Of a stretch of DNA of 64,000 bases, positions 111 through 1,645 are shown piece by piece; the stretch's first letter is position 1; each line of letters starts with the position of its first letter. This DNA is from Candidatus Zixiibacteriota bacterium. Its GTDB lineage: Bacteria; Zixibacteria; MSB-5A5; DSPP01. The DNA lies in contig JAKEHY010000037.1 in assembly GCA_022614805.1 (NCBI GenBank), positions 1 through 64,000 on the forward strand, written 5' to 3'. The position numbers were made by a program, and so were the translations under genes. The notes beneath the pieces are model-generated. The model saw only the letters and a list, made by a program, of their open reading frames with translations. It searched no databases and was not told the DNA's origin.

Positions 111-149
111 GATGATACAGGGATTAGGGATCAAGGATTAGGGATTAGT
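111..149 (+). repeat. GATTAG-rich repeat after tRNA-Lys(TTT), copy a
   Basis: This stretch starts at the first base after the tRNA. It reads GATGATAC and then a run built from GGATTAGG and GGATCAAGG units. It has the same layout as copies b (240-279) and c (1606-1645) but is the most diverged of the three. Function is unknown; it could be a processing site, a terminator-linked element or an integration scar. Confidence 0.6.
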
Positions 150-166
150 AAAGACCAAAACATTCT

Positions 167-239
167 GCGCCATTAGCTCAGTTGGTAGAGCAGCTGACTC
201 TTAATCAGCGGGTCGGAGGTTCGAGTCCTCCATGGCGCA
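167..239 (+). tRNA. tRNA-Lys (anticodon CTT)
   Basis: The acceptor stem GCGCCAT (167-173) pairs with ATGGCGC (232-238), and the discriminator is A239. The anticodon loop CTCTTAA gives anticodon CTT, which reads AAG. The T arm has the loop TTCGAGT. CCA is not encoded. With the preceding tRNA this makes a tandem pair covering both lysine codons. Confidence 0.96.
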
Positions 240-279
240 TTTAATACGGAGATTAGAGACTGGAGATTAGAGATTATAA
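240..279 (+). repeat. GATTAGAG-rich repeat after tRNA-Lys(CTT), copy b
   Basis: It begins directly after the tRNA discriminator base with TTTAATAC and continues with GGAGATTAGAGACTGGAG and GATTAGAGATTA units. Over about 37 bases it differs from copy c, which follows the tmRNA, at only two positions. It ends a few bases before the start of the phosphatase gene. Confidence 0.75.
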
Positions 280-285
280 AAACCC

Positions 286-1047
286 TTGAAAAACGCCCTT
301 GAATTAGCCGAAAAAGCCGTGCTCAAAGCGGGAAAAGCCGCCCTGCGCTATTTCCGCCAAGGTGTCTCCGCCCAACGGAAATCAGACGGCACGCCGGTAA
401 CCAAAGCTGACAAGGAAACAGAAGTAATCCTCATTGAAACTTTACAAAAAGGAATGCCCGGGTGCGGGTTTTTGGGGGAAGAATTCGGCGAACAGGGGCC
501 GAAAGAGCGGCGCTGGATTATCGACCCCATCGATGGCACCCGAAACTTCATCCGAGGCATTCCTATTTGGGCACTTTTGATTGCTTTGGAGGAGGAGAGG
601 GAAATTATCGCCGGAGTCGTCCATAGTCCCGCCACCGACGAAATCTGGACGGCGGCAAAAGGGAGTGGAGCGTTTCACAACGGCCGGCCCATTTCCGTTT
701 CGAACATTAGGTCCCTGGAGGAGGCCACGCTTTTGCATAGTGGTTTAAGAAAAAACAAAGAGGGCCTTCATTGGGATGGGTTATTGCGTTTGGTCGAAAA
801 AACTCCGTATCAGCGGGGGCCGGGGGATTACCTCGGATACATATTGGTGGCGCAAGGACAGGGGGAGATTTACCTCGAAGATGGCCTGAAGCCCTGGGAC
901 ATTGCCGCCAATAAAATCATCGTCGAAGAAGCGGGCGGGAAATTGACCGACCTTGAAGGCCGTTCCACCATCTACTCCGGTTCGGCTCTGACGACGAATG
1001 GAAAACTGCACCGGCAGGTTTTGGGGATTCTGCACGGGCGGTCGTAA
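286..1047 (+). CDS. Inositol monophosphatase-family phosphatase (histidinol-phosphatase-like)
   Basis: This is a 253-residue metal-dependent sugar- or amino-alcohol-phosphate phosphatase. The IMPase signature is complete: GEE at residues 64-66, DPIDGT at 80-85 and PWD at 203-205 supply the three-metal site, with an AGG turn after it. It resembles the HisN histidinol-phosphatase and inositol-phosphatase groups, and the natural substrate cannot be told from sequence. The chosen start is TTG at 286, because no ATG or GTG with a better site lies before the conserved N-terminal helix. It stands alone between tRNA-Lys and tmRNA. Confidence 0.87.
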   Translation: MKNALELAEKAVLKAGKAALRYFRQGVSAQRKSDGTPVTKADKETEVILIETLQKGMPGCGFLGEEFGEQGPKERRWIIDPIDGTRNFIRGIPIWALLIALEEEREIIAGVVHSPATDEIWTAAKGSGAFHNGRPISVSNIRSLEEATLLHSGLRKNKEGLHWDGLLRLVEKTPYQRGPGDYLGYILVAQGQGEIYLEDGLKPWDIAANKIIVEEAGGKLTDLEGRSTIYSGSALTTNGKLHRQVLGILHGRS

Positions 1048-1245
1048 GGGCGAAATCGTCTCTTCCCTGCGGGGCGGAACAATTACGCCCTAATCTACGT
1101 TGAAAATAGGACTGGAACTGCGGGTAGTTTTTGCCGTATATTATACTGTCGGGCGGGCATGACCCCGCCTTTTACCAGCGCCTGCCTCCCGGCATCCCCG
1201 CCTGTCCGAGCTCCGATGCAATCGGGGCCAGGAGGGTCAAGTCTT

Positions 1246-1605
1246 GGGGGCGACCGGTTTCGACGAGGACAAGGAGAAAAAGCTGGCCTGTCGAGCTCCC
1301 TGCACGCTCGTTAATCTCGCGGGACACAATTCAAGTGCCAACGATTATCCCGTTGCACTGGCTGCCTAATAAAATAGCGTAGCCCGTCCGCCCCTTGCTT
1401 GCCCTTTGACCTGGGTGCGGGCGTCGACCAAAAGGGCTGGGTGGCCGGGTGTTCGGGACCGGCGGCCGAGGAGATTCCTCGAACTGGTCCGGGCTTGAGC
1501 CCGCCCGAGGCATAAGTCCGGATGAATAAAAAAGAAGAAGGGCTATACAGGTAGAGGGCTTTTTTGAATTTCCTTCGGACGCGGGTTCGATTCCCGCCGC
1601 CTCCA
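1246..1605 (+). ncRNA. ssrA: tmRNA (ssrA)
   Basis: Transfer-messenger RNA frees stalled ribosomes and tags the unfinished protein. The tRNA-like ends pair: GGGGGCG (1246-1252) with CGCCTCC (1598-1604), discriminator A1605. The T arm has the loop TTCGATT. The 5' end carries the typical GGGGGCGACCGGTTTCGACG start. The internal message at 1337-1369 encodes the tag ANDYPVALAA followed by TAA, with the usual ALAA degradation tail. CCA is not encoded. The 360-base length is normal for one-piece tmRNA. Confidence 0.97.
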
Positions 1606-1645
1606 TTTAATACAGAGATTGGAGACTGGAGATTAGAGATTAGTT
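1606..1645 (+). repeat. GATTAGAG-rich repeat after tmRNA, copy c
   Basis: It starts at the first base after the tmRNA with TTTAATACAGAGATTGGAG and continues with the same units as copy b after tRNA-Lys(CTT). The two copies differ by two substitutions over about 37 bases, although the RNA genes themselves are unrelated at this end. Confidence 0.75.

Follow-up and report, generated by a model that had tools for sequence, protein, structure and literature searches.

Arrays of short heptamers occupy a fixed position behind many tRNA genes, the tmRNA gene, and the SRP RNA gene of an uncultured bacterium, represented by a MAG assembly of 2.55 Mb in 38 contigs. That RNA genes share the repeat at this position is confirmed, and its enrichment there is strong. 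The arrays comprise four units, point outward from the gene, and keep an 8-nt register; their sites are retained in a relative of the same genus, but their sequences have turned over. We favor, at a probability of roughly 0.45, the explanation that they represent a dispersed intergenic cassette of the G-rich-heptamer kind, whose site and direction are dictated by a stem end and which has been repeatedly overwritten from other copies. The retention of the sites could equally reflect selection.

The window analyzed, the first 64 kb of contig C38, contains exactly three RNA genes (ARAGORN, Rfam), all located on the forward strand near its start (Table 1). Each is followed by an 8-nt leader with an AC end and a 30-nt core, RG(RGATTRG)x4, which usually continues with a T and an A-rich stretch. 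In the case of tRNA-Lys(ttt), the discriminator base is at position 110 and CCA is not encoded. The initial annotation had placed repeat copies at positions 111, 240, and 1606, directly after the two tRNA genes and the tmRNA gene, which agrees with the results of ARAGORN and Rfam and with the sequence; the two differences that it had counted over 37 positions between the copies at 240 and 1606 are also correct. When up to two mismatches are allowed, GATTAGRGATTAG matches the window nine times (1.18 ± 1.05 expected), and eight of these matches lie inside the three RNA-adjacent arrays. A weaker match reported near position 44174 is a degenerate array (PWM score of 23 vs. 38 to 48 for the RNA-adjacent copies in the window), located 22 nt past the stop codon of an ORF (41442-44150) that encodes a DUF5916 protein of 902 amino acids (Pfam). 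A protein with an aminoacyl-tRNA editing domain (PF04073) is encoded directly behind the tmRNA (1728-2225).

Table 1. Coordinates of RNA genes, leaders, arrays, and RAYT genes. Plain positions refer to the window; G000 is the genome that contains the window, and G001 is a genome of the same genus.
Feature	Position	Strand or orientation	Remarks
tRNA-Lys(ttt)	39..110 (ends vary: 38/39-110/111)	+	ARAGORN and Rfam RF00005, 74.7 bits
8-nt leader GATGATAC	111..118	+	between mature 3' end of tRNA-Lys(ttt) and array 1; from sequence
Array 1, AGGGATTAGGGATCAAGGATTAGGGATTAG	119..148	+	four heptamers
tRNA-Lys(ctt)	167..239 (ends vary: 166/167-239/240)	+	ARAGORN and Rfam RF00005, 74.5 bits
8-nt leader TTTAATAC	240..247	+	behind tRNA-Lys(ctt); from sequence
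Array 2, GGAGATTAGAGACTGGAGATTAGAGATTAT	248..277	+	four heptamers
tmRNA	1246..1605	+	tag peptide ANDYPVALAA; ARAGORN and Rfam RF00023, 173 bits
8-nt leader TTTAATAC	1606..1613	+	behind tmRNA; from sequence
Array 3, AGAGATTGGAGACTGGAGATTAGAGATTAG	1614..1643	+	four heptamers
Degenerate array, AAGGATTAGAGATTGGCAATCAGTGATTAA	44173..44202	+	
5' array of tRNA-Arg(tct)	G000:C15:63425-63456 (L003:1073)	reversed	
5' array of tRNA-Arg(tct)	G001:C64:121588-121619 (L304)	reversed	
RAYT	G000:C25:8746-9069 (L396)		NF047646 above cut-off
RAYT	G000:C4:10858-11184 (L398)		NF047646 above cut-off

When spacings were assigned manually from the acceptor stem, the distance between the discriminator base (or the encoded CCA) and the core was exactly 8 nt in 10 of 14 cases in the genome itself and in 7 of 13 cases in G001; the remaining spacings are mostly 7, 9, or 10 nt. 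The 8-nt spacing holds though the leaders differ (GATGATAC, TTTATTAC, CCAGAGAC), and the base preceding the core is a C in all 27 cases. The repeat unit measures 7 nt, and periods of 5, 6, 8, and 9 yielded nothing comparable. Of 71 arrays, 55 consist of exactly four units. Both a hairpin and the tetranucleotide GTAG are absent from the array itself.

The preference for four units would be accounted for if the arrays were G-quadruplex elements, with each unit contributing one of the four G tracts (the oligonucleotide types at issue are GAGATTAG and GGGATTAG), as has been suggested for the repeats of Xanthomonas and Nostoc. For the present arrays this is extremely improbable, because four runs of GGG occur in only 6 and four runs of GG in only 13 of the 71 arrays, and because GGG and GAG exchange freely between orthologous arrays. 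A three-tetrad quadruplex fails by sequence. With four units kept in the absence of a quadruplex-forming sequence, the quadruplex explanation falls away in this genus.

Short heptamer repeats are common in many bacterial genomes. The short tandemly repeated repetitive (STRR) heptamers of heterocystous cyanobacteria, reportedly described by Mazel in 1990 and in later work, are dispersed 7-nt tandem arrays between genes, some of them inside RNase P RNA and the tRNA-Leu intron. The arrays described here are likewise dispersed 7-nt tandem repeats between genes; to our knowledge, however, STRR heptamers belong to a different phylum, and we know of none in a fixed register behind tRNA, tmRNA, or SRP RNA genes. 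There is also a resemblance to the G-rich heptamers of Xanthomonas and Nostoc, with which the present arrays share the 7-nt unit, the preference for four units, the intergenic location, the outward polarity, and the tendency to keep their places while varying in length and sequence between relatives. Those repeats (GGGAATC and GGGGA(C/T)T) also prefer four units, which has been tied to quadruplex formation; they are located on the sense strand within 50 bp of stop codons or antisense upstream of ORFs, mostly in the same places in related species but with extensive variation in length and sequence, and tRNA is not mentioned (Rehm et al. 2015, PMC4692102). By contrast, about half of the strict copies described here are located at RNA genes in an 8-nt register, and their unit, RGATTRG, is mostly not quadruplex-capable. 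The TAACTGA repeats of marine Beggiatoaceae are also short intergenic heptamer arrays (2 to 6 units, with a wide but patchy distribution) but are oriented forward and located immediately upstream of start codons, where a translational role has been proposed (MacGregor 2015, PMC4679880). The repeat is thus of a type already described, the heptamer repeats of bacteria; because the quadruplex-forming sequence is present in only 6 of 71 arrays, we claim membership only for this wider type. The preference for RNA genes, the 8-nt register, and the fixed number of four units without quadruplex-forming sequence are new. Because each site is anchored with single-base precision at the mature end of an identified RNA and can be traced across species, signal and insertion become testable alternatives.

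A strict search with the 32-nt pattern ACAGRGATTRGWGAYTRGRGATTRGRGATTRG (up to three mismatches) returned 26 matches in the genome itself and 31 in G001, compared with none for the reversed pattern used as a control; the same pattern has no match in 37 further genomes of the class. Thirteen of the 26 copies lie within about 11 nt on the 3' side of an RNA gene, where scattering between genes would place approximately 0.03, with 10% of the genome assumed to be intergenic (p ~1e-31). The picture of many scattered copies with no preference for RNA gene ends does not hold, although about half of the copies lie elsewhere. When all tRNA genes of the genome were located and their flanks read, arrays were found behind about 13 of 45 (including Ala-CGC, Ala-GGC, Arg-CCG, Arg-CCT, Ile-GAT, Leu-TAA, Lys-CTT, Lys-TTT, one Met, Pro-TGG, Val-TAC, and, in a partly decayed form, Thr-GGT) and also behind the tmRNA and SRP RNA genes. 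This corresponds to about 15 of 47 RNA genes; among protein genes, whose total is assumed to be 2,300, the number is very roughly 5. The claim that every RNA gene is followed by the repeat is accurate for the window (three of three) but does not extend to the entire genome, where about two thirds of the RNA genes lack an array, among them those of RNase P RNA, 23S rRNA, and 5S rRNA and about 30 of the 45 tRNAs.

At the RNA genes of this genome, 15 arrays are located on the 3' side and one on the 5' side. Together with the fixed 8-nt trailer and the conservation at a largely common set of RNA genes in two species, this bias is what would be expected of a signal for 3'-end processing of tRNA, tmRNA, and SRP RNA, a role (or one in termination) that the initial annotation had considered. 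Such a signal is nevertheless very doubtful as a general explanation, because reversed copies occur at 5' ends, because one genome of another family has equal numbers of 5' and 3' arrays, because other copies lie behind protein genes and palindromes, and because most tRNAs and the RNase P RNA and 5S rRNA genes lack the array. The second proposal of the same annotation, repeated insertion at tRNA-like ends, fits better.

Arrays on the 5' side of tRNA genes are reversed and point away from the gene. In the case of tRNA-Arg(tct), a reversed 5' array is present in both members of the genus but consists of completely different heptamers. The same outward rule, with other heptamers, is found in more distant genomes of the class, where the 3' flanks were read for a subset of the tRNAs and array hits in G002 and G010 were grouped by hand. 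In G002, a member of the same order, 8 of the 13 array loci adjoin tRNAs, and all eight point outward, including reversed 5' arrays at tRNA-His, -Asp, -Lys(ttt), and -Thr(cgt); the reversed control of the pattern used for this genome was not clean (16 vs. 27 matches). Among the matches listed for G010, a member of another family, 6 of about 37 places flank tRNAs, again all oriented outward, and period-7 arrays are present on the 3' side of 10 and on the 5' side of 10 of its 22 tRNAs, counts in which the 5' and 3' arrays of neighboring tRNAs can overlap. Outward arrays at tRNAs were weakly seen also in G004. The heptamers are specific to each lineage: TTAGAGA in the genus itself, TTAAGGA and TTAGTGA in G002, TTAATGG in G004, and TTAACAG and TTAGTTT in G010. 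Where tRNA genes are neighbors, facing arrays can form an inverted repeat, as in several loci of G010 (L404, L401, L418), where tRNA genes are bracketed by period-7 arrays of AACAGTT and TTAGTTT. Outward polarity was seen also at the ends of protein genes but was counted systematically only for RNA genes.

The presence of outward arrays on both sides of a gene is compatible with a role as a transcription boundary, in which the array would end transcripts or block incoming transcription into RNA genes. The strand of the incoming transcript is richer in C than in G, with YC steps every 7 nt, resembling a Rho loading site, and inverted pairs located between genes would terminate transcription in both directions. 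Consistent with this main rival explanation, such repeats coincide with transcript starts or ends in Xanthomonas, more frequently when they are quadruplex-capable (Rehm et al. 2015, PMC4692102). Moreover, in an exact scan of named genomes, similar arrays were located, among the matches listed, mainly in Chloroflexi but also in Nostoc, Chamaesiphon, Bacteroidota, and Planctomycetes, and many of these arrays begin close to stop codons, with an inverted array behind them. None of 119 such arrays (113 unrelated loci, among the matches listed) lies within 60 nt of a tRNA, which rules out tRNA adjacency as a general property of the arrays listed. A boundary function is possible but unlikely, because co-directional genes lie behind several arrays (Lys-CTT, tmRNA), because the arrays of G010 are not C-rich on the incoming strand, and because two thirds of the tRNAs have no array; in an indirect test, convergent genes were not in excess behind array-bearing RNA genes (6 of 11 vs. 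9 of 27, p = 0.28).

The same-genus comparison is based on one relative, G001, in which a largely identical set of RNA genes carries the repeat (Ala-GGC, Arg-CCG, Ile, Leu-TAA, Lys-TTT, Met, Pro-TGG, Val-TAC, tmRNA, and SRP RNA). The arrays at Ala-CGC and Lys-CTT are found in only one of the two genomes; in the latter case, array 2 is absent from the orthologous tRNA of G001. Although tRNAs are 99% and the tmRNAs 95% identical between the genomes, the nine pairs of orthologous arrays are no more similar to each other (mean identity, 0.756) than non-orthologous pairs (0.771; permutation p = 0.68), and some leaders are identical (GATGATAC, TTTATTAC) while the arrays behind them differ. Site, period, and register persist, but the sequence of the array is completely turned over. 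Arrays of the RGATTRG family behind tmRNA and SRP RNA genes are restricted to the two members of the genus within the class; in G004, another heptamer is located about 30 nt behind the tmRNA.

The number of units also varies between orthologs (four and three at Val-TAC, four and about six at Leu-TAA, four and three at tmRNA), which would be expected if a 7-nt unit had merely expanded in place by replication slippage beside stems that stall the polymerase, without any dispersal of a cassette; slippage tied to the polymerase footprint has been proposed earlier for heptamers (discussed in PMC4692102). Slippage alone is nonetheless quite unlikely, because the same unit family, the AC-ending leader, and the sharp peak at four units recur at dozens of unrelated sites, which calls for a shared source or a strong constraint.

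In the favored explanation of a repeatedly overwritten cassette, four head-to-tail units of 7 nt are read outward from the gene boundary and, in this genus, are placed mainly 8 nt past the end of a stable stem, chiefly the acceptor stem of a tRNA or tmRNA or the end of the SRP RNA and, in a minority of cases, a palindrome. The stem, either as the 3' end of an RNA or as a hairpin in single-stranded DNA, may fix the place and direction of writing, and existing cassettes may be overwritten from other copies via template switching, gene conversion, or renewed insertion. The cassette would not be a signal that is read during RNA maturation, and any benefit would be secondary. A more far-reaching possibility, which we consider unlikely, is a hitherto unknown copying process that uses the stem end as an address, writes an outward cassette of four heptamers 8 nt further on, and repeatedly rewrites it with the heptamers of the respective lineage (TTAGAGA, TTAAGGA, TTAATGG, TTAACAG).

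Insertion at tRNA-like ends is in line with the fixed 8-nt register, the shared leader, and the copies after palindromes, but the arrays have no linked integrase or transposase, as judged from the surroundings of RAYT genes and tRNA-Arg(cct), and no clean empty site revealed an insertion with defined ends or a target duplication. Genes of REP-associated tyrosine transposases (RAYTs) are encoded in these genomes (NF047646 above cut-off), and GTAG...CTAC palindromes adjoin some of the copies, as in REP/RAYT systems; unlike REPs, the array itself has no hairpin. An identity as RAYT-mobilized REPs was rejected, since the array lacks a hairpin and GTAG and the two RAYT genes checked in the genome itself have no array closer than 1.5 kb; in G001, a RAYT-like gene has one array at a distance of about 0.5 kb. 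An isolated 3' fragment of tRNA-Arg(cct) that is followed by an array in G001 (L437:1750-1860, G001:C27) looks like the scar of a tRNA-integrated element; the intact tRNA-Arg(cct) is located on another contig (L436, G001:C63) and has no array in its 3' flank. Four ORFs checked in the vicinity of these two loci (a GGDEF/PAS protein, an oxidoreductase, and two that lack a Pfam match) include no recognizable integrase.

Copies away from RNA genes are located behind palindromes, behind the stop codons of protein genes, or in longer intergenic repeats, often ending with GATTCG-TCCGCCC. A strong stem is present within 45 nt upstream of 17 of 40 such copies, and its base is 8 to 13 nt from the core in 14 of the 17, compared with 2 to 5 of 11 to 14 at shifted control anchors; this spacing is suggestive only, as a single repeat accounts for many of the palindromes, which are hence not independent. 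Folding z-scores are only slightly lower upstream (-1.15) than downstream (-0.75). A hairpin requirement for all copies was rejected, since a strong stem upstream is lacking for most copies in this group (23 of 40). Palindromes of the type GTAGGGGC...GCCCCTAC occur in several intergenic regions of the genus. A longer repeat (GCACGCCAGCGGCGCCGACGCCGACCCGTCGCACAAATAC, array, TGAAATCC...) is present in four copies in the genome (C27, C1:12670, the end of C8, and the start of C33; L061, L056, L057, L103); three of the four are near contig ends, and the repeat may help to break the assembly. On contig C28 (30282-30489; L105:780-1110), three successive arrays, spaced 81 to 95 nt apart, are part of a larger tandem unit, TCCGCCC..CACCTCCCCAGAGCGACCCCCTATAGTC.
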